Assembly: GCF_030143245.1 (NCBI RefSeq)
Contig: NZ_JARJNS010000007.1
Location: 1-64,000, forward strand
DNA length: 64,000 bases
Direction of reading: 5' to 3'
Source of the DNA: Rhabdaerophilum sp. SD176
GTDB lineage: Bacteria > Pseudomonadota > Alphaproteobacteria > Rhizobiales > Beijerinckiaceae
The position numbers and the translations under genes are program-made. How positions within the stretch are numbered: the stretch's first letter is position 1; the number at the start of each line of letters is the position of its first letter. The notes under the pieces are model-generated. The model saw only the letters and a program-made list of their open reading frames with translations, was not told the DNA's origin and did not search any database. Below, in pieces: positions 9,315 to 26,617 of the stretch.

Positions 9315-10454
9315 TCACAAGTTGATTGGCGTCGGATCCCAGCGCCCGAGCCGGTCCAGCAGCATGGCCGTGCTGCCATCGGTCAGCGCCGCCAGCTGGG
9401 CGGCACCGACATGCCGGGCGAAAGGATGGATCTCGCGCAGGCCCTCGGCGCCCATGGCATGCATCAGCGCGGGCAATTCCCGCTGGGCGAGGGCAACCGC
9501 GTTCACCTTCGCGGCAGCCGCGAGATGGCGGACATCGCCGCCGGCCTCGATGGCACTGACGGCGCTCTCCACCAGCGCCCAGGCGGCGGCGAGCGCGGTG
9601 GCGCATGCGGCCGGCTTCTCGCGCCAGACGGCATGCTCGTCCAGCGGCTTCCCGAAGCTCCGCCGCGTTCCACCATAGGCCTGGACAATGCGGAGCCCGG
9701 CCGAGACCATGGCGCAGCACATTGCCGCGACATAGATCCGCGCGCCGTTGATCTCCTCGAGGATGGCCTTGAAGGCGGTCCCGGCAGGCAGGAGCAGGCG
9801 TTCATCCGGCACGAGGCAATGGTCGAGCCGGAACCCGCCGGTGCCGATACTGGCCTGCGGAATGACGGATTCCACCGGATACCGCGTGACGGCCGGATCG
9901 GTCAGGTCCACGAGGAACGCGGCGATGCCGGCACCCTGCCCCGGCTGCCCGGTCTGCGCATAGACGATGGCATGGCGCGCATGCCGCGCATTGACGATCC
10001 ATCGCTTCTCGCCGTCCAGCATCCAGCCGGTCGAGGTCTTTTCGGCCCGGCATTGCATGGCCGCGGCGTCCGAGCCGGCACCGGGCTCTGTCAAGGCGGT
10101 GCAGGCACTGGCCCGCCCGGCCAGCAGGTCCGGCAGCAGCGCGCGGGCCAGATCGGGCGGGGCGGAAAGGACGATGCGCTTCGCGACGTTGTGCGTATTC
10201 ACAAGCGCCATCGCGAGGCCGAAATCGACCGCAGCGAGGATGGCACAGGCCTCGACCTTGGCCCGGAACGACAGGCCGAGCCCGCCGAAGGCTGGCGGCA
10301 CCTCAACCGCTGTCAGGCCGATCGCCCCCGCCCTGGCAAGCAGGGTCGGATCGGGCGAGGCCCCGCGTGCCCAGCCGGGCGCGGCCGGAGCCACCACTTC
10401 CCGCGTGAAGGCCCTGACCTCGGCGAGGAAAGCCCGGGTGGCCTCATCCGCCAT
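9315..10454 (-). CDS. Acyl-CoA dehydrogenase
   Basis: A 379-residue FAD flavoprotein that introduces an alpha,beta double bond into an acyl-CoA. Recognisable blocks: ALTEPGAGSDAAAMQCRAE (FAD and substrate binding, about residues 116-134), KRWIVNARHARHAIVYA, and the C-terminal helical domain with GGTRRSFGKPLDEHAVWREK. The usual catalytic Glu near the C-terminus cannot be assigned by eye. ATG at 10454 overlaps the permease stop by 11 bp, showing translational coupling. Together with the acyl-CoA synthetase it suggests beta-oxidation-like processing of the imported acid. Confidence 0.87.
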   Translation of the reverse strand: MADEATRAFLAEVRAFTREVVAPAAPGWARGASPDPTLLARAGAIGLTAVEVPPAFGGLGLSFRAKVEACAILAAVDFGLAMALVNTHNVAKRIVLSAPPDLARALLPDLLAGRASACTALTEPGAGSDAAAMQCRAEKTSTGWMLDGEKRWIVNARHARHAIVYAQTGQPGQGAGIAAFLVDLTDPAVTRYPVESVIPQASIGTGGFRLDHCLVPDERLLLPAGTAFKAILEEINGARIYVAAMCCAMVSAGLRIVQAYGGTRRSFGKPLDEHAVWREKPAACATALAAAWALVESAVSAIEAGGDVRHLAAAAKVNAVALAQRELPALMHAMGAEGLREIHPFARHVGAAQLAALTDGSTAMLLDRLGRWDPTPINL

Positions 10455-11391
10455 GGCGGACCTCCCGCCGGATGATCCGGGCGAAGGCGGCCTTGGCGAT
10501 CCCGACAATGCCGATGGGCATGAAGATCGTCGCGAGAACGAGGATCAGCCCGTAGAGGATCAGCCGGAAACTGTCGGCAAAGCGCAGCAATTCCGGCAGG
10601 AAAACCACGAGGAAGGCCCCGATCGCCGGCCCGGCAATCGTGCCCGACCCGCCGAGGATCACCGCGAGGATGGCATCGAGCGATTGCGCGACACCGAAGA
10701 TCTCGGGGTTGATGAAGCCCTGGAAATGCGCGTAGAGCGCGCCGCCGAGCCCGGCATACATGGCCGAGATGACGAAGGCGAAGAGCTTGTACTTCCACGC
10801 GGCGATGCCAAGCGCGGCCACGAGATCCTCGTTCTGGCGGATGGCGAGCAGGATCTCGCCCACGCGGGACCGGGCGATCAGCGCCGCCAGCAGCGTCAGC
10901 GAGGCGGCCAGCACGAGCGCGAGATAATAGAAGGCCTCACGATTGCCGCCCCAGGGCTTCGGAATGTTCGAGATCCCCGCCTCGCCCTTGGTGAGTTCGG
11001 AATAGTTCACCAGCACGATGACGATGATCAGGTTGAAGGCCAGCGTGACGATGGCGAAGTAATGGCCCTTGACCCGCAGGCTGGGATAGCCGGTTGCGAG
11101 CGCGAACAGGGCCGTGATCAGCGGCGCCATGATCATGGTGGCCCAGAGCGGCCACTGGAAGTTGAGCCCCATCAAGGTCGAGCCATAGGCGCCGATGCCC
11201 ATGAAACCCGCCTGCACGATGGAGACATAGCCTGTGAACCCCTGGATGAGGTTCTGCCCCTGCGCGACGATCACCCAGATCAAGGCAAGGATGCTCAGAT
11301 GGAGATAATATTTGACGGTCAGCACCTGCGGCAGGACTGCGAGCAGGGCCAGGGCGAGCAGCCATGGAAGGAGCGCGAGGATCCGGTTCAT
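10444..11391 (-). CDS. Branched-chain amino acid-type ABC permease (LivM type)
   Basis: A 315-residue inner-membrane permease of the Liv/HAAT family. About nine hydrophobic helices are seen, including the family signature GYVSIVQAGFMGIGAYGSTL and the C-terminal ILGGSGTIAGPAIGAFLVVF. It pairs with the LivH-type permease upstream (4-bp ATGA overlap) to form the transmembrane channel, energised by the two ATPases of the same operon. The presence of acyl-CoA enzymes downstream makes an aromatic or aliphatic carboxylate more likely than leucine as substrate. Confidence 0.88.
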   Translation of the reverse strand: MNRILALLPWLLALALLAVLPQVLTVKYYLHLSILALIWVIVAQGQNLIQGFTGYVSIVQAGFMGIGAYGSTLMGLNFQWPLWATMIMAPLITALFALATGYPSLRVKGHYFAIVTLAFNLIIVIVLVNYSELTKGEAGISNIPKPWGGNREAFYYLALVLAASLTLLAALIARSRVGEILLAIRQNEDLVAALGIAAWKYKLFAFVISAMYAGLGGALYAHFQGFINPEIFGVAQSLDAILAVILGGSGTIAGPAIGAFLVVFLPELLRFADSFRLILYGLILVLATIFMPIGIVGIAKAAFARIIRREVRHGG

Positions 11392-12251
11392 GGCGCGCGC
11401 CCCAGCAGGCCCTGCGGCCGGATCAGCAGGACGAGGATCATCACGACAAAGGCGATGACATCCTTGTAGGCCGAGGAAATGAAGCCGGCAGCGATGGATT
11501 CGGTGATCCCGAGCACGGTGCCGCCGAGGATCGCGCCGGGGAAGGACCCGAGCCCGCCGAGGATCAGCACGGCAAAACCCTTGACGACCAGCCCCTCGCC
11601 GATGCCCGGGGCGATCGCGAAGAGCGCGCCGACCATGATGCCGGCCGCCACGCCGAGCGCGGTCGACATGCCGAACACGATCAGCGGGATGGTACGCACA
11701 TTGACGCCCATCAGGATGGCCGCGTCGCGGTTCTCGGCCACCGCCCGGATCGCCTGGCCGGTCTTGGTCCGCTCGACGAAGATCATCATCGCCACGACCA
11801 GCACGATGGCGGCGACGATCACGTAGAGGCGGAGTTCCGGAACGGTGATCCCGCCGAGCCGGAACACCCGGGAGAGCCCGGTGGGGATGACAACCTGCTC
11901 ATGGCCGAACAGCTGGAGATTGATGCCCTCGACCATCATGGTCAGGCCGAGGGCAACGATGAAGGCGTTGATATGGTTGGCATTCCGCACGGGGCGATAG
12001 GCGAGGATCTCGACCAGCATCCCGAGAAGGATGCCGGCGACGAGCGCGACCGGAATGGCCGCCAGCACCGGCAGACCCTGCGAGGTCGCAAGAAAATAGG
12101 TGAGGTACCCGCCGAACATCGAGATCGAGCCATGGGCGAAATGGGCGATCCCGAGAATGCCGAAAACGGTGGTCAGGCCGAGGGCGATCAGCACATAGAC
12201 GCCGCCGATCGCCAGACCGTTGATCGTCTGCTGGAGAATTTCGATCAGCAT
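11388..12251 (-). CDS. Branched-chain amino acid-type ABC permease (LivH type)
   Basis: A 287-residue permease. It starts with LIEILQQTINGLAIGGVYVL and contains the family blocks ALGLTTVFGILGIAHFAHGS and GLVVKGFAVLILGGLGSFPG, with eight or so helices. It follows the binding-protein gene by 16 bp and overlaps the LivM-type gene by 4 bp. It should form a heterodimer with that protein in the inner membrane. Confidence 0.88.
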   Translation of the reverse strand: MLIEILQQTINGLAIGGVYVLIALGLTTVFGILGIAHFAHGSISMFGGYLTYFLATSQGLPVLAAIPVALVAGILLGMLVEILAYRPVRNANHINAFIVALGLTMMVEGINLQLFGHEQVVIPTGLSRVFRLGGITVPELRLYVIVAAIVLVVAMMIFVERTKTGQAIRAVAENRDAAILMGVNVRTIPLIVFGMSTALGVAAGIMVGALFAIAPGIGEGLVVKGFAVLILGGLGSFPGAILGGTVLGITESIAAGFISSAYKDVIAFVVMILVLLIRPQGLLGRAP

Positions 12252-12267
12252 CGGCCTGCCCGATCCG

Positions 12268-13482
12268 TTACTTCAGCGTGCTGAGGAACTGCGAATAGGC
12301 CTTCGAATCCGAGGGAAGATCCTCGACGAACACCCATTTGCCCTTCTGCCACTGGAAGGCGCCGTTGGACGTGTAGGCCTGGCCGTTGACGTCGAACATC
12401 TTTCCGTCGACCGGCTGGTACTGCATCACCACCTGCGGCGGAACGGCAAGGTTGCGCAACGCCTTGGCGACAGCTTCCGTATTCTCCGCCGTGCCGGCTG
12501 CCTCGATCGCCGCCTTCAGCGCATAGAGCTGGTCATAGGCGTAGGGGGAGCTGGGCGACGGCGAGGCATTGTACTTCTTGGTGTAGTTGGCGTGGTAGGC
12601 GACGCCGTTCTTGCTGGCGGAAAGCAGCGTCAGCTCGGTCGGGCGGAGATCCCAGACGCCTTCCATCTGTTCCGAGGTCGTGACGCGGAGGAACTGCTCC
12701 TCGCTGCCGCTGGTGAAGCCGTAGCGCGGGATGTTCATGCCCAGCTCAACCGCCTGACGATAGACGAAGGCGGCGGGCTCGACATAGCCGACGACGAGGA
12801 TGGCATCGGGGTTGAGCCCGCGGATCTTCGTCAGCTGCGGGGTCATGTCGCGATCCTTGAGCGAGAAGACCTCGCGGGCGATGATCTCGCCGCCGACCTT
12901 CTTGATCTCGCGTTCGACGGAATCGACATACTGGGCGTAGAAGCCGACATCGAGCGCGCCGAGCACCGCGATCCGCTTCTGGCCCTTCCGCGCGATGAAG
13001 GTGCCGGCCGCCTGGCCGGTATAATCCGCCGGCGGACGCGTACGGACGAGATTCGGGATCTTCTTGGTGGTGATCGAGCGCTCGGCCGCATTGCCGACCA
13101 GCATCACGGCCTTTTCGTTGCCGATGAAGGACGCGACCGCGCTGGTCGAGCCCGAGCAGCAGAAGCCGAGGATGTATTTCACGCCATCGCGGTCGATCAG
13201 CTTCCGAACCGCGTTGGTGGCTTCGGTCGGGTTGGCCTTGTCGTCATAGGCGATGACATCGATCTTGTAGATATCCGGGCCGGCCTTGATGCCGCCTGCC
13301 GCATTGATTTCCTCGGCGGCCATTTTCACCGCATTCGCCTGCGGCAGGCCGTAAACAGCGCCGCCCCCGGTCAGGGCGTCGGCGACGCCGACAGTAAGCT
13401 TCTTTTCCGCCGCCAGCGACGAGCCGGCGACGAGAGTCAGCGCCAGGGCGGCGCAGGCACGCGTGAACTTGTGTTTGGACAT
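12268..13482 (-). CDS. Liv-type ABC transporter substrate-binding protein
   Basis: A 404-residue periplasmic protein of the Peripla_BP_6 family. The start at 13482 follows GGAGGAAACC, and the first 24 residues (MSKHKFTRACAALALTLVAG...) form a Sec signal peptide with likely cleavage after SSLA. The mature N-terminus KLTVGVADALTGGGAVYGLP is the typical ligand-lobe start. Two adjacent Cys (GFCCSGSTSA) near the hinge are unusual for the family. It is encoded between the ATPase and permease genes and should capture the substrate of this operon. Confidence 0.88.
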   Translation of the reverse strand: MSKHKFTRACAALALTLVAGSSLAAEKKLTVGVADALTGGGAVYGLPQANAVKMAAEEINAAGGIKAGPDIYKIDVIAYDDKANPTEATNAVRKLIDRDGVKYILGFCCSGSTSAVASFIGNEKAVMLVGNAAERSITTKKIPNLVRTRPPADYTGQAAGTFIARKGQKRIAVLGALDVGFYAQYVDSVEREIKKVGGEIIAREVFSLKDRDMTPQLTKIRGLNPDAILVVGYVEPAAFVYRQAVELGMNIPRYGFTSGSEEQFLRVTTSEQMEGVWDLRPTELTLLSASKNGVAYHANYTKKYNASPSPSSPYAYDQLYALKAAIEAAGTAENTEAVAKALRNLAVPPQVVMQYQPVDGKMFDVNGQAYTSNGAFQWQKGKWVFVEDLPSDSKAYSQFLSTLK

Positions 13483-13510
13483 GGTTTCCTCCGTTGTCGT
13501 TTCTTGTCGG

Positions 13511-14212
13511 TCAGTGACCGAGATAGGCACGCATCACATCCGGGTGGTTCTTGAGGGCGCCGGCAGCGCCCTCCATGACGATCCGCCCGGCTTCGAACAG
13601 GTAGGCGCGGTCCGCGAGGTTGAGCGCCATCATCGAATTCTGCTCCACCAGCAGGATGGTCACGCCCATCGCCTTGATCCGGGCGAGGGTCTCGAACACG
13701 CTGGCGACAATCTTCGGCGCGAGGCCCAGCGAGGGCTCGTCGAACAGGCAGATCCGGGGCCGCGCCATGAGTGCCCGCGCGATCGCCAGCATCTCCTGCT
13801 CGCCGCCGGAGAGCTTCCCCGCCGCCTGGGACTGGCGTTCCCGCAGGATCGGGAACATGTCCATCATCCGGGAGAGATCGGCTTCCTGCTCGGGGTCGGT
13901 GCGCGTATAGGCCCCCATGCGGAGGTTCTGGATCACGCTCATCTGCGGGAAAACCTGCCGCCCCTCGGGGCACATGGTGATGCCGGCGCGGACAATCGCA
14001 TGGCCGCTTGCCCGGGTGATGTCATTCCCCTCGAACGAGATCGATCCGCCCGAGGCCGGCACCAGCCCGCAGATCGCCTTCAGCGTGGAGGATTTCCCGG
14101 CTCCGTTCGCGCCGATCAGCGCGACGCATTCGCCAGCGGCGACATCGAGACTGACGCCATGCACCACCTCGATGCCGCCATAGCTGACCTTGAGATCGCG
14201 GACACTCAGCAT
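13511..14212 (-). CDS. Liv-type ABC ATPase (LivF type)
   Basis: A 233-residue cytoplasmic ATPase. Walker A GANGAGKSSTL (about residues 35-45), Q-loop near CPEGRQVFPQMSVI, signature KLSGGEQEMLAIARALMARP and Walker B ICLFDEPSLGL are intact. The short length and ITMCPEGRQVF segment mark the LivF subtype. It lies 1 bp after the LivG-type gene and 28 bp before the binding-protein gene, in the same operon. Confidence 0.92.
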   Translation of the reverse strand: MLSVRDLKVSYGGIEVVHGVSLDVAAGECVALIGANGAGKSSTLKAICGLVPASGGSISFEGNDITRASGHAIVRAGITMCPEGRQVFPQMSVIQNLRMGAYTRTDPEQEADLSRMMDMFPILRERQSQAAGKLSGGEQEMLAIARALMARPRICLFDEPSLGLAPKIVASVFETLARIKAMGVTILLVEQNSMMALNLADRAYLFEAGRIVMEGAAGALKNHPDVMRAYLGH

Positions 14213-14213
14213 G

Positions 14214-14981
14214 TCAGGCCGCCTCGCCGAGATAGGCGTCGATGACGGCAGGGTTCGCGCGGATCTCGGCCGGGCTGCCTTCGGCGATCTTGGCGCCGAA
14301 ATTCAGCACGACGATCCGGTCGCACAGCGCCATGATCAACGCCATGTGATGCTCGATGATCACCACCGCGATGCCGCGCTGGCGGATGCCGCGGATCAGT
14401 TCGGCAAGCTCCTGCCGCTCATGCTCCACCAGCCCGGCCGCCGGCTCGTCGACCAGCAGGATGCGCGGCTGCGCGGCCAGCGCCGTGGCGATCATCAGGA
14501 AGCGCTGCTGGCCGGAAGAAAGGCTCGCGACAGGACGATCCGCAACCGGGTGGAGCGCGCAGAGCCGGAGAACCTCGTCAACCTGGCTGTCGATATCCGC
14601 CTGTTCGCGCCGCCAGCTCCCGAATGGCAGGATCGATGCAAACGGATTGACCTGCCGGATCGCATGGCACCCCATGGCCACATGCTGGCGTACGGTGAAT
14701 TCGGGGAAGACACGCGCCGTCTGGAAGGTGCGGCTCAGGCCCCGGCCGACGCGCTGCGCTTCCGGCAATCCCTCGATCGGCTCTCCGGCAAGGATGATCG
14801 AACCCGATGTCGGCGGAAACACGCCCGACAGGACATTGACCGTGGTTGATTTTCCGGAACCGTTCGGCCCGATCAGCCCGAGGATCTCGCCCGCCGAAAC
14901 CGTGAAGGACAAATCCCGCACGGCCCTGACGCCACCGAAACTCTTGGCAAGGCTGTCCACGCGAAGGATCGGCTCGGTCAT
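14214..14981 (-). CDS. Liv-type ABC ATPase (LivG type)
   Basis: A 255-residue ATPase and first gene of the operon. Walker A GPNGSGKSTTVNVL, GRGLSRTFQTARVFPEFTV (Q-loop typical of LivG), signature SLSSGQQRFLMIATALAAQP and Walker B ILLVDEPAAGL. The signature has SSGQ instead of the usual SGGQ, a conservative change. ATG at 14981 faces the divergent LysR gene across 137 bp containing an operator-like palindrome. Confidence 0.92.
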   Translation of the reverse strand: MTEPILRVDSLAKSFGGVRAVRDLSFTVSAGEILGLIGPNGSGKSTTVNVLSGVFPPTSGSIILAGEPIEGLPEAQRVGRGLSRTFQTARVFPEFTVRQHVAMGCHAIRQVNPFASILPFGSWRREQADIDSQVDEVLRLCALHPVADRPVASLSSGQQRFLMIATALAAQPRILLVDEPAAGLVEHERQELAELIRGIRQRGIAVVIIEHHMALIMALCDRIVVLNFGAKIAEGSPAEIRANPAVIDAYLGEAA

Positions 14982-18026: not shown

Positions 18027-19145
18027 TCACGGCGCCCGGAAAAGGTTCCTGTACCGCGCCGGATGGGCGCGGAGATATTGCGATGCCGCGTTGACTGTGC
18101 CGCCGAGATGCGCGGCGGCATGCCACGGCCAGCGCGGATCGAACAGGATCGTCCGCGCGAGGCCGACCATATCGGCATCGCCATTGGCGACAATTGCCTC
18201 GGCATGCTCGAAACCGGTGATCAGCCCCACCGCCACGACCGGCAGGCCCACAGCTTCGCGGATTTTCCGCGCCAGCGGCACCTGGTAGCCGGGCCCGATC
18301 GGAATCGAGGCGCGGGGGTCGATACCGCCGCTCGAGACATTGATGGCGGCGCAACCCCGCGCCTTGAGTTCCCGCGCGAACCGGACCGAGCTGTCGATAT
18401 CCCAGCCGCCCTCGATCCAGTCCGTCGCCGAGATGCGCACGCTGACGGGGCGCTCCGCCGGAATAACCGCGCGCACCGCCTCGAAGATCTCGAGGGGGAA
18501 GCGCATCCGGTTCTCGAGGCTCCCGCCATAGGCATCCTCGCGCCGGTTCGAGATGGGCGAGAGGAAATTATGCAGCAGATAGCCATGCGCGGCATGGAGC
18601 TGGATGCCGTCCAGCCCGAGCCCGACAGCGCGCCGGGCCGAGGCCACGAAGGCATCGCGGATGCGCTCCATCCCGGCCCGGTCGAGGATTTCGGAGGGAT
18701 GGTCGCCCTCGATCATCGGATGGGCGCTGGGCGCGACAGGCTGCCAGCCATCGGCCGCATCCGGCGGGATCTGCCGTCCGCCCCGCCAGGGCCGGTCTGA
18801 CGAGGCCTTGCGCCCGGCATGCCCGAGCTGCAGCACAAGCGGGATGCCCGACCACGCGCGGACGCTGTCCAGCATGGCCTTCATCGCCGCCTCCGTGGCA
18901 TCGTCATAGAGGCCGACGCAGGCCGGCGTGATGCGGCCGATCGGCTCGACCGCGGTCGCCTCGATAGTCAGTGCGCCAGCACCCGACTGTGCCAGCATCC
19001 CGTAATGCTGGATGTGCCAGGCATTCATGCAGCCATCGGCCGCCGAATACTGGCACATCGGGGAAATGACGATCCGGTTGGAGAGATCGATGCCGCCGAC
19101 ATGCAGCGGCGTGAACAATTGGGGTGAAGCCAAGGGAGGACTCAT
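18027..19145 (-). CDS. NADH:flavin oxidoreductase (Old Yellow Enzyme, YqjM/NamA type)
   Basis: A 372-residue FMN-dependent TIM-barrel ene-reductase. The motifs [17 protein letters not shown] (flavin binding, with the Cys typical of the YqjM class), LQLGHAGRKAS, the catalytic His-x-x-His pair in [18 protein letters not shown], and GGSLENRMRFPLEI are present. It reduces activated C=C bonds. ATG at 19145 is preceded on the coding strand by a poor Shine-Dalgarno; an upstream extension is out of character. It converges with the chemoreceptor gene and is divergent from the sigma-54-type unit at 19462. A paralogous domain forms the C-terminal half of the protein at the right window edge. Confidence 0.9.
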   Translation of the reverse strand: MSPPLASPQLFTPLHVGGIDLSNRIVISPMCQYSAADGCMNAWHIQHYGMLAQSGAGALTIEATAVEPIGRITPACVGLYDDATEAAMKAMLDSVRAWSGIPLVLQLGHAGRKASSDRPWRGGRQIPPDAADGWQPVAPSAHPMIEGDHPSEILDRAGMERIRDAFVASARRAVGLGLDGIQLHAAHGYLLHNFLSPISNRREDAYGGSLENRMRFPLEIFEAVRAVIPAERPVSVRISATDWIEGGWDIDSSVRFARELKARGCAAINVSSGGIDPRASIPIGPGYQVPLARKIREAVGLPVVAVGLITGFEHAEAIVANGDADMVGLARTILFDPRWPWHAAAHLGGTVNAASQYLRAHPARYRNLFRAP

Positions 19146-19273
19146 CCATGCGGGGAGGGAAAACCGAAGGGCGACGGGCCGACCACGCGAAGGGCCAGCC
19201 AACTGAATACATTATGCACGGCGCTGGGGACGAGGCAATCCGGCTGGCCGGGGCTGCGACCCCACCGCCCCGA

Positions 19274-19290
19274 TCCGGCGGATTTCCGCC
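19274..19290. promoter_or_regulatory. Upstream activator site 1 (candidate)
   Basis: TCCGGCGGATTTCCGCC contains the inverted repeat GGCGGA-TT-TCCGCC. It is nearly identical to the site 32 bp downstream. Its centre is about 130 bp before the predicted start of transcription, the usual position for enhancer-binding activators of sigma-54 promoters. Confidence 0.55.
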
Positions 19291-19305
19291 ATCTCCTCGG
19301 CCCCT

Positions 19306-19322
19306 TCCGGCGGGATTCCGCC
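19306..19322. promoter_or_regulatory. Upstream activator site 2 (candidate)
   Basis: TCCGGCGGGATTCCGCC, extended to CCGGCGG-GATT-CCGCCGG (19307-19324), is a perfect 7-4-7 dyad. It lies three helical turns from site 1, so both face the same side of the helix. Likely bound by the DctD-like activator encoded at 22285. Confidence 0.55.
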
Positions 19323-19387
19323 GGCCCCGGAAAGTCAGACTATCATCAAGCTATTGTTATTAATCGACTATTCTGGAAACCAGCCTC

Positions 19388-19402
19388 TGGCATGACGCAT
19401 GC
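19388..19402 (+). promoter_or_regulatory. Sigma-54 (-24/-12) promoter candidate
   Basis: TGGCATGACGCATGC fits the TGGCAC-N5-TTGC consensus with GG and GC at the exact 12-bp spacing; two positions differ (C to T, T to A). It precedes the Bug-type gene by about 60 bp and is served by a sigma-54 activator encoded in the same cluster. Confidence 0.55.
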
Positions 19403-19461
19403 TGGTCCCGTGGGTGGAAATGCGCCGTTCCGAGAATGCGCATCCATCAAGGGAGATGACC

Positions 19462-20457
19462 ATGTTCAAGCCGATCCGCCTTCTTGCCAAATCCGTCCTT
19501 GCGACATCGATCCTCGCGCTGTTGCCGGCCACAGCCGCACTCGCGCAGACCTATCCGTCCAAGCCGGTCTCGCTGATCGTGCCCTTCGCCGCCGGCGGCC
19601 CGACCGACACCATCGCCCGGCTTTACGGCGAACAGCTTTCCAAGACCCTCGGCCAGCCCTTCCTCGTCGAGAATGTCGTCGGCGCCGGCGGCGTGACGGG
19701 GACCAACCGCGCCGTCAAGGCTGCGCCGGATGGCTATACGTTCCTCGTCCATAACGTGGCCCCGCATGTGGCCGGCCCGGCCCTCTATGCCGGTGCAACC
19801 TACAGCCCGGTCTCGGATTTCGAGCCCGTTGCCTCGCTGGCCGAAGCGGCGATCTACATCGTCGTCCGCAAGGATTTCCCGGCGAAGACGCTCAAGGAAT
19901 TCCTCGATTACGGCAAGGCCAATCCGGGCAAGATCAGCTTCGCCTCGGCCGGTTCCGGCTCGGCGACGCATCTCGCCTGCGAATTGCTGAAGCTGAAGGC
20001 CGGCATCGACATGCTGCACATCCCCTATCGCGGCACGGGCCCGGCACTCAATGACCTGATCTCCGGCAAGGTCGACATGATGTGCGACCAGGGGCTGAAT
20101 GTCGGCGGGCAACTCAAGGCGGCCGCTGTCCGGGCGCTGGCCATTGCGCAGGATGCCCGCTCGAAGGCCTTCCCGGATGTCCCGACGACCAAGGAAGCCG
20201 GCCTCGAAGGGCTGATCGTCAATGCCTCGACCGCGATCTATGCGCCGAAAGGCACCCCGGCGCCGGTCATCAAGGCGGTGAGCGAGGCGCTCGACAAGGC
20301 CGGGCGTTCCGAGCTGATCACCCTGCGGCTGCAACAGCTGGTCTCCGAGCGCCCCTCCGGCGACCGGATGACCCCGGAAGGCCTGAAGCGCTTCACGGCC
20401 GAGGAATTTGCCAAGTGGACAACCACCATCAAGTCCTCTGGTATCAAGATCAACTGA
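19462..20457 (+). CDS. Bug/TctC-family tripartite tricarboxylate transporter binding protein
   Basis: A 331-residue periplasmic solute-binding protein. A signal peptide (FKPIRLLAKSVLATSILALL, cleavage near ALAQ) is followed by YPSKPVSLIVPFAAGGPTDT, the hallmark N-terminus of Bug proteins, and later VGAGGVTGTNRAVKAAPDGY. These bind carboxylates for TctAB-type transport or act as extracytoplasmic sensors. No TctA/TctB genes are in the window, so it is an orphan. ATG at 19462 is 7 nt after GGGAG; ATG at 19456 is adjacent and less likely. It is followed by a kinase/activator pair, suggesting that it presents ligand to the kinase or is the regulon target. Confidence 0.88.
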   Translation: MFKPIRLLAKSVLATSILALLPATAALAQTYPSKPVSLIVPFAAGGPTDTIARLYGEQLSKTLGQPFLVENVVGAGGVTGTNRAVKAAPDGYTFLVHNVAPHVAGPALYAGATYSPVSDFEPVASLAEAAIYIVVRKDFPAKTLKEFLDYGKANPGKISFASAGSGSATHLACELLKLKAGIDMLHIPYRGTGPALNDLISGKVDMMCDQGLNVGGQLKAAAVRALAIAQDARSKAFPDVPTTKEAGLEGLIVNASTAIYAPKGTPAPVIKAVSEALDKAGRSELITLRLQQLVSERPSGDRMTPEGLKRFTAEEFAKWTTTIKSSGIKIN

Positions 20458-20469
20458 GGGTAATGTCGG

Positions 20470-20495
20470 CCCGGATGGCCCTCAGGCCATCCGGG
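20470..20495 (+). terminator. Hairpin between binding-protein and kinase genes
   Basis: CCCGGATGGCC-CTCA-GGCCATCCGGG is a perfect 11-bp stem with a 4-base loop. It lies 13 bp after the stop of the Bug-type gene. No T-tract follows, so it may be a partial terminator or an mRNA-stabilising structure that lowers expression of the regulators relative to the abundant binding protein. Confidence 0.55.
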
Positions 20496-20506
20496 GATGA
20501 CGGATC

Positions 20507-22288
20507 GTGCAGCCAGCGCAAAGACCCATGACAGCCGCGATGACATCCGCCCTGATGGCGGGTGTCATTCTGCTTCTGGCTGCCGGAGGCTCGTTCTGGG
20601 CCTGGCTCTGGACAGGACGGGCCATTGTCGATACCGCGCGTGACCGGCTGACCCTGTACGAAACCTCGCTCGACGCCGCGGTGGAGCGCTTCCGCTACCT
20701 GCCGGAATTCATGGCCCTGACGGAACCCGTGCGGGCCTTGCTCGAAGCGCCCGATCCCACTCGTGCTGTGCAGGCCGATGCCCATCTCCTGCGCATCGCC
20801 CGCTCCGCCGGCGCCGACGTGCTCTTCGTGATGAATGCGGACGGGCTGACCCTGGCCGCCAGCAATGCCGGCGAGCCCACCTCCTTCGTCGGCCAGAACT
20901 ACGCCTTCCGGCCCTATTACCGCGCGGCGATCGAGGCCGGTTCCGGGCGCTACTACGCCGTGGGCGCCACGACGGGGAAGCCCGGCTATTTCCTCGCCTC
21001 GCGGATTGACGGGCCGCAGGGCCCGCTCGGCGTGGCGGTGGTCAAGGTCGATCTGGCCCCGCTGGAAGCGGAATGGCGGCGCACCGCCGAGAAGGTTGCG
21101 CTTGTCGACGAGCAAGGCGTCGTCTTCCTCGCCACCGATCCGGCTTGGCTCTACCACCCGCTGGCACCACTGGCGCCGGACGCCCTGCGCTATCTGGAGG
21201 AGACGCGGAAATACGGCTCACCGCCCCAGATTGGCCCGCCCTTGACGCAAGGCAGCAGCACCCGCTTCGGCCTGGCGCTGACCACGCTGCAGCCGGCTCC
21301 CGGTCAGGCCGAGACGCTGTTCGAACTGGCCCATCCCCTCCCCGGCCATGGCTGGCGGCTGATGCTGCTGGCCCCGGTGACGCGGGCCAGTGAAATGGCC
21401 TCGCTCGCCGCCTTCTCGGTGCTGGTTCTCGGCCTTGTCGCCTTTCTGGCCAGCACCGTCCTTGCCCAGCGCCGGGCCCATGCCCGGGCGCGGGAGCGCG
21501 CCCATGCCGAGCTGGAACGGCGGGTGGAGGAACGCACCCTCGCCCTGCGCGAGGCGCAGGACGGGCTGGTCCAGAGCGCCAAGCTGGCCGGCCTCGGCCA
21601 GGGCCTTGCGGGCATCGCCCATGAAATGGCACAGCCTCTCGCGGCAATGCGTGTCTCGCTGGCCAGCCTCGCCCATTTCATCGGCACGGGCGACAAGCCC
21701 AAGGCGCTGGGGACCGCCGAGGGCCTCGCTGCCATCGCCGACCGGGTGGAGAAACTTGCGGCGCAGCTGCGCAACTTCGCCCGGCCGGACAAGGAAGCGC
21801 CACGGCGGGTCAGCCTGCAGGATCTCGTCCATGGCGCCGTCTCGCTGATCGAGCATCGCCTCAAGGCGCAGGACATCACGCTGGCGCGGCATCTTCCGGC
21901 CGGACCGGTGGTTGTCGAGGCAAGGCCAAACCGTCTCGAACAAGTCATCGTCAACCTGCTCGCCAATGCGATTGATGCCAGCGAGGAAGCGGCGCGGCTG
22001 GAACCGCGCGCACGGCGGATCGATGTCACTTTGACCATTGAGGAGGGCGATGCCTGCCTCCGCGTCGAGGATGAGGGCCCGGGCCTCGGTGACCTCTCCC
22101 CGGACCGGGTGTTCGAGCCCTTCTTCTCCACCAAGGCCACCGGGCGCGGCCTCGGCCTTGGCTTGTCGATCTCGCGTGGCATCATGGCGGAGCATGGCGG
22201 CCGGCTGGGCCTTTCCCCACGCGTTGCGCGCGGCGTTGCGGCCGAATTGCGATTGCCCCTCGCACCCAGGGAAGGCGATGCCCGATGA
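20507..22288 (+). CDS. DctB-like sensor histidine kinase
   Basis: A 593-residue membrane kinase. TM1 at about residues 12-36, a periplasmic double-PAS-like sensor (NYAFRPYYRAAIEAGSGRYY and VGATTGKPGYFLASRI are typical of DctB), TM2 at about 298-320, a coiled coil, then the kinase core: H-box GIAHEMAQPLAAMRVSL with phospho-acceptor His at about 372, N-box VNLLANAIDAS, G-boxes DEGPGLGD and GRGLGLGLSIS. It should phosphorylate the adjacent response regulator (4-bp overlap). Start: GTG 20507 or ATG 20528; the upstream GGGGATGA favours the GTG slightly. Confidence 0.9.
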   Translation: MQPAQRPMTAAMTSALMAGVILLLAAGGSFWAWLWTGRAIVDTARDRLTLYETSLDAAVERFRYLPEFMALTEPVRALLEAPDPTRAVQADAHLLRIARSAGADVLFVMNADGLTLAASNAGEPTSFVGQNYAFRPYYRAAIEAGSGRYYAVGATTGKPGYFLASRIDGPQGPLGVAVVKVDLAPLEAEWRRTAEKVALVDEQGVVFLATDPAWLYHPLAPLAPDALRYLEETRKYGSPPQIGPPLTQGSSTRFGLALTTLQPAPGQAETLFELAHPLPGHGWRLMLLAPVTRASEMASLAAFSVLVLGLVAFLASTVLAQRRAHARARERAHAELERRVEERTLALREAQDGLVQSAKLAGLGQGLAGIAHEMAQPLAAMRVSLASLAHFIGTGDKPKALGTAEGLAAIADRVEKLAAQLRNFARPDKEAPRRVSLQDLVHGAVSLIEHRLKAQDITLARHLPAGPVVVEARPNRLEQVIVNLLANAIDASEEAARLEPRARRIDVTLTIEEGDACLRVEDEGPGLGDLSPDRVFEPFFSTKATGRGLGLGLSISRGIMAEHGGRLGLSPRVARGVAAELRLPLAPREGDAR

Positions 22289-23667
22289 GCCCCAACCCCG
22301 CCCCGCCTCAACCCGGCCGGATCCTTGTCGTCGAGGATGACCGCATGGTCCGCCGCGCTCTTGTCGAATGGCTCGGCATTGCCGGGCACCATGTCATCGA
22401 GGCGGAGGATGGTGCATCGGCCCTCGCGCAACTGCCGCAGGCATCGCCGGAACTCGTGCTGTCGGATATCCGCATGCCCGGCCTCTCCGGCCTCGACCTG
22501 CTGGCCCGGATCCGCGCCGTCGATTCCGATCTTCCGGTGGTGCTCGTCACCGGCCATGGCGACGTCCCGATGGCAGTCGCCGCGATGCAGGGCGGCGCGC
22601 ATGATTTCGTGACGAAACCTTACGATCCGGACCATCTCGCCGCCATCATCGCGCGCGCGCTCACCTTCCGCCGGCTGCGGGCCGAACTCGCCGCCCTGCG
22701 CAGCGGTGCAGCGGGTGCAGGCCCGATCGAGGCGCGGCTGCTTGGCCCCTCGCGGGCGATGGAGCAGGTCCGGCGGCAGGCACTGAAACTGGCGGCCCTG
22801 CCGGTGGATGTGCTCCTTATCGGCGAGACCGGCACCGGCAAGGACGTTCTCGCCGAGGCGCTCCACGCCGCGAGCCCGAGGGCGCGCGGGCCCTTCGTGG
22901 CTTTGAACTGTGCCGCAATCCCTGCCGACCTCGCCGAAAGCGAGCTGTTCGGCCACGAGGACGGCGCCTTTACGGGGGCGAGAGCCGCACGGGCCGGCAA
23001 GTTCGAGGCGGCGCAGGGCGGCACGATCTTCCTCGACGAGATCGAGAGCATGCCGCTGGCGCTGCAGGTCAAGGTTTTGCGTGTCCTCCAGGAAAGGCAG
23101 GTCGAGCGCCTCGGCTCCAACAAGCCGCGCCCGCTCGACTTGCGCGTCATCGCCGCCACGAAGGCCGATCTGCGCAAGGCCAGCGAGGACGGGCGCTTCC
23201 GGGCGGACCTGTTCTACCGCCTGAACGGCGCGGAACTGCATCTGCCCCCGCTCCGCGCGCGGGATCAGGACGCATTGCTGCTCTTCGAGCTTTTTGCCAG
23301 CCGGGCGGCCCGCAGCCAGAACCTGCCGGTGCCGCAACTCGCCCTCGCGGATCGCGAGGCGATCCTTGCCCATGCCTGGCCTGGCAATGTGCGTGAACTG
23401 AAGGCCGTCGCCGAGCGCTTCGCCTACGGGCTTGTCGAACCTCAGGGCGGGCTGGCGCGGCTTCTTGCGGGTGCGCATGCCGCTGAGGCCGGAGGCGCGG
23501 GCCTGATATCGCGGCTGGAAGAGTACGAGCGCATGCTCATCCGCGCCGCTCTGGCTGAATCCGGCGGCACCGTCTCTGCCGCAGCCGAGCGGTTGGGCCT
23601 GCCGCGCCGCACCCTGAGCGACCGGATGGCCCGTTTGGGCCTGACCCCGGGCGAGGCCGGCGGCTGA
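22285..23667 (+). CDS. DctD-like sigma-54-dependent response regulator
   Basis: A 460-residue NtrC-family activator. Receiver domain with acidic pocket VVEDD and phospho-acceptor Asp61 (LSDIRMPG), then AAA+ domain with Walker A GETGTGKD (about 180-187), the sigma-54-contacting loop GAFTGA (about 227-232), Walker B GGTIFLDEIES and the R-fingers, and a C-terminal Fis-type HTH (GTVSAAAERLGLPRRTLSDR). It overlaps the kinase gene by ATGA. A -24/-12 promoter and two palindromic sites upstream of the Bug-type gene are its probable targets. Confidence 0.93.
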   Translation: MSPNPAPPQPGRILVVEDDRMVRRALVEWLGIAGHHVIEAEDGASALAQLPQASPELVLSDIRMPGLSGLDLLARIRAVDSDLPVVLVTGHGDVPMAVAAMQGGAHDFVTKPYDPDHLAAIIARALTFRRLRAELAALRSGAAGAGPIEARLLGPSRAMEQVRRQALKLAALPVDVLLIGETGTGKDVLAEALHAASPRARGPFVALNCAAIPADLAESELFGHEDGAFTGARAARAGKFEAAQGGTIFLDEIESMPLALQVKVLRVLQERQVERLGSNKPRPLDLRVIAATKADLRKASEDGRFRADLFYRLNGAELHLPPLRARDQDALLLFELFASRAARSQNLPVPQLALADREAILAHAWPGNVRELKAVAERFAYGLVEPQGGLARLLAGAHAAEAGGAGLISRLEEYERMLIRAALAESGGTVSAAAERLGLPRRTLSDRMARLGLTPGEAGG

Positions 23668-23682
23668 GCGGAACGCTGCGGC

Positions 23683-24405
23683 TCAACCCGCCCGCAGAGC
23701 CGCGGTCAGCCGGGAAGCCGAAGCCAGCACGAGCGCGGTCAGCCGAGGCACCGCAATGGAATCGAACCGGGTAATCGGCCCGGAAAGACCAAGCGCGCCG
23801 AGCAGCACGCCATCCGCGCCGAAAACCGGCGCCGCCACGGCCGCGCTGTCCGGATCGCGCTCGCCCCGCGACACGGCATGGCCAACCGCACGGATCTCTG
23901 CGGCGCGCGGGTGGTCGCTGCCAGACCAGGTGGCCAGCACATGGCCGCTGGCGCCGATGGCGAGCGGCAGCAGGCTGCCCTCCTCGAGATGGGAGCGCAG
24001 CGCGCGCGGGCCGTTGACGCGATAGAGGCAGAGCCGGGCCTCGCCCTCGCGGACATAGAAGGCGGCGGTCTCGCCCGATTCGCGCGAGAGGGATTGCAAT
24101 TCAGGCCGGATCACCGCCTCGAGCGGAAACCCGAGCCGGTAGATCCGCGCCAGCGGCAGCACGGCCGGGCCGAGCCGGAACCGGCCATCGGCCTCGCGCC
24201 GCAGAAAGCCGAACCGCTCGAGTGACCCGGACAGCCGGAGCACGGTGCTGGGATAAAGCCCTGCCGCCTCGGCCAGTTCCTTGAGGGTGAGATGCGTGCG
24301 CCCCTCGCCGAAACAGGCGAGCAGAGCGAGCGCCCGTTCCACCGCCTCGACGCGCGGCAGCTCGGATCCATCCCCCTTGCGCGGCTTGGGCGGTCGCCCG
24401 GCCAT
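23683..24405 (-). CDS. IclR-family transcriptional regulator
   Basis: A 240-residue regulator. N-terminal winged HTH (about residues 18-80: VERALALLACFGEGR, LKELAEAAGLYPSTVLRL) and the C-terminal IclR effector domain (ESGETAAFYVREGEARLCLY, AAPVFGADGVLLGALGLSGP). ATG at 24405 follows GAGGGGGATC; the GTG at 24417 is less likely. It is divergent from the HMG-CoA-lyase-like/CoA-transferase operon, which it probably represses through the palindrome at 24456-24473; the effector would be the acid or CoA ester handled by that pair. Confidence 0.9.
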   Translation of the reverse strand: MAGRPPKPRKGDGSELPRVEAVERALALLACFGEGRTHLTLKELAEAAGLYPSTVLRLSGSLERFGFLRREADGRFRLGPAVLPLARIYRLGFPLEAVIRPELQSLSRESGETAAFYVREGEARLCLYRVNGPRALRSHLEEGSLLPLAIGASGHVLATWSGSDHPRAAEIRAVGHAVSRGERDPDSAAVAAPVFGADGVLLGALGLSGPITRFDSIAVPRLTALVLASASRLTAALRAG

Positions 24406-24455
24406 GATCCCCCTCACTCCTCTTGACGACAGACCGTCGATGGTCTTTTCTAAAA

Positions 24456-24473
24456 ACAGAATAATAATTCTGT
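24456..24473. promoter_or_regulatory. IclR operator candidate
   Basis: ACAGAAT-AATA-ATTCTGT is a perfect 18-bp palindrome, 15 bp before the lyase start. A weaker dyad, AGACC-N6-GGTCT, lies at 24431-24446. It is AT-rich against a GC-rich background and sits where a repressor would block the start of transcription. Confidence 0.55.
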
Positions 24474-24488
24474 CTAGCGGAATTTTTG

Positions 24489-25427
24489 ATGGCCCAACCT
24501 GACATCACCATCAGCGAGGTCGGCCCGCGGGACGGGCTGCAGAGCATCGCCCGGATCATGCCAACCGAGGCCAAGCAACGCTGGATCCGCGCCCTTGCCG
24601 CTTCCGGGCTGCGCGAGATCGAGGTCGGTTCTTTCGTGAACCCCAAGCGCCTGCCGCAAATGGCCGATACCGCCGAGGTGGTGGCCGACGCGATCACCCT
24701 GCCCGACCTGTCGGTCATCGCGCTGGTGCCGAACCTCGTCGGCGCAGAACGGGCTTTCGCAGCTGGCGCCCATCGCGTCTCGATGCCGGTCTCGGTGTCG
24801 GAGTCGCATTCACGCCAGAACATCAACCGCTCGTCGGAGGAGGCCATCGCCGAAGTCCGGGCGGTAGCCGCCTTGCGGAACAGCCTGCCGGATGCCGCCC
24901 GTCGCGGCGTCGAGGTCGGGCTGTCGACGGCCTTCGGCTGCACGATCGAGGGCATGATCGACGAGGACCGCGTCATCCGCTTCGCCGTGCTGGCGGCCGA
25001 AGCCGGCGCGGATTCGGTAGGCCTCTCGGATACGACCGGCATGGGCAATCCGGCGCAGGTCAAACGGCTCTTCACCCGGCTCCGGTCCGAACTGGGCAGC
25101 AAGGCCGGCGGCGCGCATCTCCACAACACGCGCGGCCAGGGCCTCGCCAATGTTGTCGCGGCTCTGGAAGCCGGCGTCACCACCTTCGATTCCTCGCTGG
25201 CCGGCCTGGGCGGCTGCCCCTATGCCCCGGGCGCGACGGGCAATATCGTGACGGAGGATCTCGTCTTCATGCTGGAAGCCTCGGGCCTGACCACCGGGAT
25301 TGACATTGACCGCCTCGTCGCGGCGCGCGCCATCCTCGCCGAGGCCCTGCCGGACGAGCCACTCTACGGCCACGTCGCCGAAGCCGGCCTGCCCAAGGGC
25401 TTCGTCTATGCCGGAGGCCGGACATGA
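24489..25427 (+). CDS. Hydroxymethylglutaryl-CoA lyase-family enzyme
   Basis: A 312-residue TIM-barrel enzyme of the HMGL/DRE-TIM family. The metal and substrate residues are in EVGPRDGLQ at the N-terminus, HLHNTRGQGLANV (metal-binding His pair) and the active-site Cys loop GLGGCPYAPGATGN. HMG-CoA lyase cleaves HMG-CoA to acetyl-CoA and acetoacetate in leucine degradation; relatives cleave other 3-hydroxyacyl-CoAs such as citramalyl-type substrates. The neighbours are a family III CoA-transferase (ATGA overlap) and an IclR regulator, not leucine genes, so a C5/C6 dicarboxylate pathway is an alternative reading. Confidence 0.85.
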   Translation: MAQPDITISEVGPRDGLQSIARIMPTEAKQRWIRALAASGLREIEVGSFVNPKRLPQMADTAEVVADAITLPDLSVIALVPNLVGAERAFAAGAHRVSMPVSVSESHSRQNINRSSEEAIAEVRAVAALRNSLPDAARRGVEVGLSTAFGCTIEGMIDEDRVIRFAVLAAEAGADSVGLSDTTGMGNPAQVKRLFTRLRSELGSKAGGAHLHNTRGQGLANVVAALEAGVTTFDSSLAGLGGCPYAPGATGNIVTEDLVFMLEASGLTTGIDIDRLVAARAILAEALPDEPLYGHVAEAGLPKGFVYAGGRT

Positions 25428-26617
25428 CAGGCCCGTCGCCGCTGGCCGGCATCCGCGTTGTCGAATTCTCCCACATGGTCATGGGGCCGAGTTGCGGGCT
25501 GGTCCTTGCCGATCTCGGCGCCGATGTCATCAAGGTCGAGCCGGCCGGCGCCGGCGACAATACCCGCCGCCTTGCCGGGTCGGGCGCGGGCTTCTTCGTC
25601 AGCTTCAACCGCAACAAGCGCTCCATCGCGCTCGACCTGAAATCGCCGCGCGGCCTGGCGCTGGTCCGCCGCCTGATCGCATCGGCGGATGTGATGACCG
25701 AGAATTTCCGTCCCGGCGCGCTCGAGGCGCTCGGCCTCGGCTACGAAGCCCTGAAGGCCGAAAACCCCCGGCTGATCCATTGCTCGCTCAAGGGCTTCCT
25801 GACCGGCCCCTACGAGAACCGCGCCGCCCTCGATGAAGTGGTGCAGATGCTTGGCGGCCTCGCCTACATGACCGGTCCGCCCGGCCGCCCGCTCCGGGCC
25901 GGCGCCTCGGTGAACGACATCATGGGCGGCATGTTCGCGGCAATCGGCATCCTCGCCGCACTCCATGAGCGGCAGACCACCGGTCTCGGTCGCTCGGTGA
26001 AGGCGGGCCTGTTCGAGAACTGCATCTACCTCATGTCGACGCATATGATGCAATATGCCGTCACCGGCAAACCGGCCGCGCCGATGCCGAACCGGCTTGC
26101 CGCCTGGGCGGTCTATGATGTGTTCGATGTCGCCGATGGCAGCCAGGTCTTTGTCGGTGTCGTTTCGGATACGCAATGGTCGGCCTTCTGCGCGGCTTTC
26201 GGGCTCGAGGACCTGCTGGCCGACCCGGCCCTCGCCACCAACCGCGACCGCGTGCTGGCGCGGGAGCGTTTCATGCCCCGCCTGCGCACGCTCTTCGCCG
26301 GCCGGTCACGAGCGGAGATCCTGGCCGAATGCGAGCGGATCGGCCTCCCCTTCGCGCCGATCAACCGCCCGGAAGACATGTTCGACGATCCCCATCTCAA
26401 CCATCCCGGCGCGATGGTGCCGGTGACGATCCCCGGCGGCGCCTCGGCCCGCGTACCGGCCCTGCCGCTCGAATTCGACGGCAAGCGCCCCGGCCTCCGC
26501 CACGACATCCCGAAAGCGGGCGAACAGGGAATCGCGCTCTGCCGCGAACTCGGCCTCGGCGAGGACGAGATCGAGGCCCTTCTCGTGGAAGGCGCGATGA
26601 CGGTCGCCCAGGCCTGA
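25424..26617 (+). CDS. Family III CoA-transferase (CaiB/BaiF type)
   Basis: A 397-residue CoA-transferase that moves CoA between acyl groups, usually from succinyl-CoA to a carboxylate. Conserved blocks: GIRVVEFSHMVMGPSCGLVL, LGADVIKVEPAGAGD, NRNKRSIALDLKSPRG and the catalytic Asp in ALDEVVQMLGGLAYMTG, the counterpart of the YDxxxQA motif of formyl-CoA transferase. Its start overlaps the lyase stop by 4 bp, so the pair is co-translated: CoA transfer to an acid, then cleavage by the lyase. Confidence 0.88.
   Translation: MTGPSPLAGIRVVEFSHMVMGPSCGLVLADLGADVIKVEPAGAGDNTRRLAGSGAGFFVSFNRNKRSIALDLKSPRGLALVRRLIASADVMTENFRPGALEALGLGYEALKAENPRLIHCSLKGFLTGPYENRAALDEVVQMLGGLAYMTGPPGRPLRAGASVNDIMGGMFAAIGILAALHERQTTGLGRSVKAGLFENCIYLMSTHMMQYAVTGKPAAPMPNRLAAWAVYDVFDVADGSQVFVGVVSDTQWSAFCAAFGLEDLLADPALATNRDRVLARERFMPRLRTLFAGRSRAEILAECERIGLPFAPINRPEDMFDDPHLNHPGAMVPVTIPGGASARVPALPLEFDGKRPGLRHDIPKAGEQGIALCRELGLGEDEIEALLVEGAMTVAQA

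Follow-up and report, generated by a model that had tools for sequence, protein, structure and literature searches.

What does a DctB/DctD-type regulatory pair control when the only uptake gene linked to it encodes a lone solute-binding protein? The question is raised by three adjacent genes, here called the triad, on the plus strand of a 64,000-nucleotide stretch from Rhabdaerophilum sp. SD176 (NZ_JARJNS010000007.1, positions 1 to 64,000; the window), which belongs to contig C22 of a 3.96-Mb genome and has its nearest named relatives among Beijerinckiaceae and Hyphomicrobiales metagenome-assembled genomes. From 5' to 3' the triad encodes a TctC-family binding protein, a sensor kinase and a sigma-54 activator. 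The anatomy of its genes and sites, their conservation and the purifying selection on the genes can be read directly in the DNA, and we regard it as likely that the triad forms a sensory circuit of the DctB/DctD type, with one TctC/Bug binding protein as its linked output. The triad is real and conserved, and the design of its control is ordinary for this family of regulators; its target is unusual. What sets it apart is that the sole linked target of the switch appears to be a binding protein without a permease, whose gene seems to share an operon with those of its regulators.

Promoter and paired palindromes ahead of the binding-protein gene

A predicted sigma-54 promoter with the -24/-12 element TGGCATGACGCATGCT (19388–19403, plus strand) precedes the binding-protein gene, scoring 10/12 against TGGCACG-N4-TTGCW, and TGGCATGACGCATGC at 19388–19402 is the sole match to TGGCA[CT]N5[AT]TGC on both strands of the window. 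The start site is projected near 19413–19414, 12 bp past the GC of the -12 half. The element is present in all six orthologues, where it scores 10–11/12 and lies 73–77 bp before the ATG, and one copy of rpoN was found in the genome.

Further upstream are two predicted operator sites, the first, GGCGGATTTCCGCC (19277–19290, plus strand), being a perfect inverted repeat around TT and the second, CCGGCGGGATTCCGCCGG (19307–19324, plus strand), a perfect inverted repeat around GATT. They overlap the near-identical 17-mers TCCGGCGGATTTCCGCC (19274–19290) and TCCGGCGGGATTCCGCC (19306–19322), which are 32 bp apart and stand about 130 and 100 bp before the projected start site. Both the -24/-12 promoter and the two 17-bp palindromes had been described in the original prediction and were found where it placed them; the loss of the paired sites in close relatives, which it had named as a refutation, was not seen: both sites and the exact 32-bp spacing are kept in the six triad genomes, as is the promoter (kinase identity 73–100%). 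Among the six orthologues 12 of 15 columns are invariant in site 1 (19276–19290) and 10 of 15 in site 2 (19308–19322). Taken together, the sites and the -24/-12 element have 32 invariant columns of 42, whereas the remainder of the upstream region has 27 of 208, and most of the sequence between the elements has diverged (Fisher p 7e-16, a value to be read with the columns not being independent and the elements having been picked from the window itself). The leader 3' of the promoter is fairly conserved too (25/58 columns).

In its own genome the palindrome pair is unique. The motif TCCGGCGGRWTTCCGCC has two zero-mismatch matches, which are the two window sites, and at up to two mismatches there are 51 matches on both strands compared with 6 for the reversed control; a wider regulon was looked for in this genome in the form of a second palindrome pair, which was not found. 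When 17 genomes of the genus were searched, allowing 10–26 bp between the two core repeats, the 32-bp pair was present at the triad position in six, which are the six triad carriers, and in none of the other eleven. The search gave one extra match with a different spacing, elsewhere in genome G094, and the reversed control matched in one genome.

The operator is of a known kind. The Rhizobium DctD box is given as TGTGCGgaaatCCGCACA, with the core GCGG-N3-TCCGC, and at least two such sites precede dctA (PMC11077940). Of the 15 defined positions of this box each window site agrees with 9, which all belong to the core, and the sequence common to the window operator and the published box is GCGGNNNTCCGC.

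A survey was made of 140 loci with related kinase/activator pairs. One source of loci was a collection scan, from which the best 80 of 94 were kept; the other was a search of genomes, with a sample of 298 from the family and 397 from the order, which supplied 94 regions around matches, not all matches. In total 174 loci were considered, 34 lacking a usable kinase or activator gene call were excluded from tree and scan, and L120, a copy of L036, was dropped and the window added instead. An intergenic sigma-54 element of at least 10/12 before a called gene start is present in 62 of the 140 loci, and 39 of the 62 also have a pair of similar palindromes scoring at least 16. The spacing is 30–34 bp in 34 of these 39 pairs, most commonly 32 bp (16 pairs), compared with 39 of the 160 regions that reached the score among 1240 shuffled controls, in which base composition only was preserved. 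The 34 are not a tally of independent events, because there are near-copies among the loci. One surveyed pair at least, in the G+C-rich L094, looks like chance. Gene starts in the survey were automatic, and for this reason the triad loci L032 and L034 failed its criteria, their elements being evident in the alignment.

At 32 of these 34 loci the promoter is followed by a recognised uptake gene (DctP 7, TctC 7, TAXI 6, DctA 5, ABC binding protein 4, MFS 3), and at two the gene has no uptake assignment. Sites of the CGGCGG type, as in the window, precede MFS, ABC and TAXI genes, and those of the CGGCAAG and GTGCGG types precede DctP and DctA genes. Since paired palindromes recur across related loci, the layout is a recurrent trait of DctD-type regulators. 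The survey suggests a rule by which DctB/DctD-type regulators could be linked to their targets across several carboxylate transporter families: a sigma-54 element preceded by two similar palindromes with a spacing of about 31–32 bp. In nine hand-picked relatives a sigma-54 element of 10–12/12 was found before the uptake gene, 65–75 bp away in eight and 138 bp away in L114. The same-genus loci L114, L124 and L125 carry other DctB/DctD-type pairs, beside MFS or TAXI-TRAP transporters and not in a TctC triad.

Within 5.5 kb of the 140 pairs the nearest recognised uptake gene is DctP in 34, DctA in 25, TAXI in 25, MFS in 20, TctC in 11 and ABC in 4, with none in 21; these labels are automatic and limited to the queried uptake families, and they sometimes conflict, L117, L173 and L208 being labelled "none" on the tree with an uptake match in another scan. 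On the two-protein tree of kinase and activator, which is a quick one with its long branches flagged, the TctC label changes three times, each change being forced by branches with at least 95% support in the Shimodaira–Hasegawa-like approximate likelihood ratio test (SH-aLRT), and these need not be three gains. The three TctC clades are that of the window (six rows), that of L156, L163 and L168, and that of L112 and L113. The second, from the same order, shares with the window the TctC target, sigma-54 elements of 10–12/12 and paired palindromes 32–33 bp apart; it differs in having a complete tctCBA (TctA and TctB of L156 confirmed by Pfam), a divergent orientation and sites of the GGCAAG type. 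The third, from another genus of the family, has the window gene order, in which a lone TctC without permease is followed in the same orientation by kinase and activator, and -24/-12 elements of 11/12 and 10/12 at -66 and -65, but stands on a separate branch of the tree; no significant palindrome pair was found there in the pair scan. The original prediction of a DctB/DctD-type circuit attached to a transporterless TctC protein thus stands for the local circuit, the elements of which are in all six genomes, and has to be narrowed in that the paired sites are recurrent and the association with TctC is not unique, because such regulatory pairs adjoin complete TctCBA in three genomes of the order.

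Proteins of the triad and the proposed circuit

The binding protein (331 residues; 19462–20457, plus strand) belongs to the TctC family by PF03401 (218 bits against a cut-off of 27, E 2.3e-64) and has an N-terminal hydrophobic segment, as judged by hydropathy alone. Its nearest solved structures are 6hke, labelled a possible TctC subunit in its record and which we take to be the malate protein MatC, and BugD (2f5x), with further matches to 2dvz and to 2qpq (Bug27). A table in PMC5812351 gives BugD as an aspartate binder and 2dvz as BugE.

The kinase (593 residues; 20507–22288, plus strand) has a transmembrane segment, a periplasmic dCache domain, a second transmembrane segment, and HisKA and HATPase domains. 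HATPase_c is above its Pfam cut-off, and dCache_1 (40.1 bits against 45) and HisKA are below theirs; the sensor domain matches the DctB structures 2zbb (E 1.5e-41), 3e4o (2.9e-41) and 3by9 (1.8e-28). Of the five residues that we assume to form the succinate pocket of DctB, Y132, R135 and K180 are unchanged in the window kinase and T156 replaces a Ser. The pocket Arg and Lys are kept in all 138 aligned rows that have a letter there (two rows are gapped), and kinases beside MFS or DctA transporters keep the same pocket residues. The matched structures come from S. meliloti and V. cholerae, and in the account of PMC8694187 the dCache domains of P. aeruginosa DctB, MifS and AauS group with DctB structures and are treated as carboxylate binders. 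Kinase pocket and binding-protein structure matches point to a dicarboxylate as the probable ligand.

The activator (460 residues; 22285–23667, plus strand) consists of a receiver, a sigma-54 AAA+ domain with GAFTGA at residues 227–232 and a Fis-type helix-turn-helix. Profile and structure matches bear out the DctB-like kinase and the DctD-like activator with GAFTGA that had been proposed. Purifying selection acts on all three genes, with ratios of nonsynonymous to synonymous substitution (dN/dS) of 0.11–0.16 against L033, L035 and L036 (dS above 1 for L036). If the kinase gene starts with GTG at 20507 (an alternative is ATG at 20528), a gap of 49 bp is left behind the binding-protein gene, where no GG-N10-GC element was found; at its other end the kinase gene shares 4 bp with the activator gene.

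The gap contains an 11-bp G+C-rich hairpin (20470–20495, plus strand; -31.2 kcal/mol, z -3.76; z -3.11 in L035 and -2.11 in L036) that is not followed by a T run and was not called as a terminator. It is predicted in all six orthologues despite varying letters; 4 of 20 consensus pairs show two-sided change, and for 8 of 20 there are one or two sequences in which the pair is broken or falls in a gap. The hairpin probably lifts the output of the binding protein over that of the regulators. A second candidate, a stem-loop in the 5' leader before the ribosome-binding site (19414–19447, plus strand) with the inverted repeat ATGCGC/GCGCAT, which is replaced by TTGCGC/GCGCAA in L036, was set aside on account of weak z-scores in two of three sequences (-1.08 in the window, -4.83 in L035 and -0.34 in L036).

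From this anatomy we infer the ligand, phosphotransfer, DNA binding, co-transcription and permease partner of the following circuit. The kinase would bind a dicarboxylate-like acid in the pocket of its own periplasmic dCache domain and phosphorylate the activator. The activator would sit on the two palindromic enhancers, which are separated by three helical turns, and stimulate transcription by sigma-54 RNA polymerase from the -24/-12 promoter. The resulting transcript would span the binding-protein gene and continue past the intercistronic hairpin into the kinase and activator genes, giving positive feedback, and the binding protein would scavenge the acid for a permease encoded elsewhere.

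This permease is most likely encoded by tctBA on contig C19. The genome has 18 TctC genes and 6 TctA genes, and orphan Bug proteins are described as common in many genomes (PMC5812351). No TctA gene was found on the window contig, and among the six triad genomes only G094 has a TctA on the contig that carries the triad, the nearest being about 65 kb from it; in the remaining five TctA is on other contigs. Linked TctB or TctA was not found at the triad, TctB not having been searched for genome-wide, and within 4.5 kb of the kinase in L032–L036 there are no TRAP, MFS, DctA or query-type ABC genes. The nearest paralogue of the window protein in its own genome is 50% identical and part of a complete tctBAC operon on C19; the binding-protein tree joins the two at 96% SH-aLRT, and the C19 protein is closer to 6hke than the window protein is. 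This makes C19 tctBA a reasonable candidate for the partner.

Neighbouring genes and competing explanations

Upstream of the triad is a divergent gene for an old-yellow-enzyme family oxidoreductase (18027–19148, minus strand; PF00724), which adjoins the triad in five of the six genomes and is absent in L036. A sigma-70-like TTGCCT-N16-CATAAT at 19211–19238 (minus strand) faces this gene; the five genomes with the oxidoreductase gene all retain CATTATG (plus strand), and L036 does not. Downstream (23683–26617) there are an IclR regulator gene (minus strand) and genes for an HMG-CoA-lyase-like enzyme and a family III CoA-transferase (plus strand), which also adjoin the triad in five of six genomes and not in L036, and which are possibly a branched-dicarboxylate catabolic unit. 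The best NCBIfam match of the CoA-transferase, under the cut-off, is a succinate-glutarate CoA-transferase, and lyase and CoA-transferase (24486–26617), with the IclR regulator, may possibly serve a route for 3-hydroxy-3-methylglutarate or a similar branched dicarboxylate. The nearest transporter genes identified are those of a Liv-type ABC cassette on the opposite strand (10444–14981); the cassette, which at 9315–14981 (minus strand) includes an acyl-CoA dehydrogenase and a binding protein of its own, adjoins a divergent LysR gene.

Several observations weigh against the proposed circuit and its distant permease partner. A sigma-54 score of 10/12 is reached at seven places in the window, that at 19388 included, so the -24/-12 element alone is only suggestive. 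The window sites differ from the Rhizobium box outside the core; in the survey, 78 of the 140 loci lack a sigma-54 element that qualifies, and a high-scoring pair is missing from 23 of the other 62. In the kinase the residue that we assume to be T171 of the DctB pocket is Ala (Ala for Thr at 154). The link to the C19 permease is one of similarity alone, and common regulation was considered for the C19 operon and rejected, the best sigma-54-like match ahead of it scoring 8/12. Co-occurrence was likewise rejected as a guide to the partner: C19-type tctA is found at 83–100% identity in 15 of the 17 genomes of the genus, as a 91% fragment in one and at 60% at best in G227, and being near-universal it is uninformative about the triad. 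The catabolic genes were rejected as an obligatory part of the unit, because G094 has the triad without them alongside.

The strongest competitor, which we consider rather unlikely, holds that the binding protein is a ligand-presenting co-receptor which, once loaded, docks on the kinase to control how active it is, transport being secondary or absent and the triad amplifying its own receptor. In its favour are the absence of linked TctA and of other transporter genes described above and the intercistronic hairpin, which could tune the stoichiometry. Precedents have been described: induction by citrate is reported to depend on BctC, and two-hybrid results support its interaction with BctE or BctA (review PMC5812351); the authors of work on AatJ and the DctB-like AauS allow both sensing readings (PMC7386598); and in Rhodoplanes genes for binding proteins of the tripartite tricarboxylate transporter (TTT) family lie near 14 of 22 histidine kinase genes, with sensing roles proposed, also for orphan binding proteins (PMC5994714). 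The linked output is limited to the binding protein and its regulators, and the paired operator is single in the genome, both of which argue against the proposal. MFS and DctA transporters operate without a binding protein, and the kinases beside them keep the same pocket residues as the window kinase. Since the latter keeps its own DctB-like pocket, a ligand presenter is not required and direct sensing is the simpler reading; a role of the binding protein as co-sensor is possible. A little less probable again is a permease-free sensing triad, in which TctC would be the dedicated receptor of the DctB-like kinase and the circuit would mainly make its own receptor and regulators. If so, an orphan Bug protein would be a signalling and not a transport component, and the window and L112/L113 clades, distant on the kinase/activator tree, could represent two separate origins.

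It is very improbable that the triad is the decaying remnant of a DctB/DctD-controlled TctCBA system that has lost its membrane genes. Complete TctCBA with such pairs does occur in the order (L156, L163, L168), and the binding-protein tree groups their clade and that of the window in one 11-row set (94% SH-aLRT), but all three reading frames are intact and purifying selection acts on each, the promoter elements are conserved, and neither tree makes the window clade the direct sister of the TctCBA clade. Equally hard to credit is that the main targets of kinase and activator are distant genes, with the palindromes serving another regulator: the related activator AauR is reported also to control unlinked genes in one species, and TCCGGCGGRWTTCCGCC has single-site matches elsewhere or on the opposite strand (four with one mismatch and 45 with two), but the 32-bp pair is limited to the triad genomes (6/17), carries the DctD core and recurs beside other DctD-type activators.

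Comparison with known systems

Many orphan Bug/TctC proteins have no known role, and a conserved unit that couples one of them to a regulator with a predictable operator opens ligand, induction and permease partner to experiment. No description of a TctC gene under a DctB/DctD-type pair was found among the open-access papers listed in searches for one, a set that lacks most subscription papers; the passages of PMC4618731 and PMC7020829 that bear on the point have dctBD beside dctA, or TctDE for TctABC.

The triad resembles the DctB-DctD-dctA system of Sinorhizobium and Rhizobium, with which it shares a dCache kinase, an NtrC-type activator, at least two palindromes with the GCGG-N3-TCCGC core and a sigma-54 target. 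There the target is the dctA permease, whereas in the window it is a TctC protein with the regulators downstream in the same apparent operon; the lack of a linked membrane transporter sets the triad apart from transporter-controlling DctB/DctD systems in general. In Pseudomonas, MifS-MifR with PA5530 and AauS-AauR with aatJQMP are described as DctB/DctD homologues that switch uptake genes, AauS being beside a binding protein, but their target includes an MFS or ABC permease and not a TTT one, and the AauR box is given as TTCGG-N4-CCGAA. TctDE-type regulators are OmpR-like and not sigma-54 activators, in contrast to the sigma-54 AAA+ regulator of the window. The TctDE-type system BctDE-BctCBA of Bordetella likewise combines a TctC protein with a two-component system, and its binding protein takes part in signalling; it differs in that the transporter is complete and that the binding protein is reported to be required for induction by citrate.

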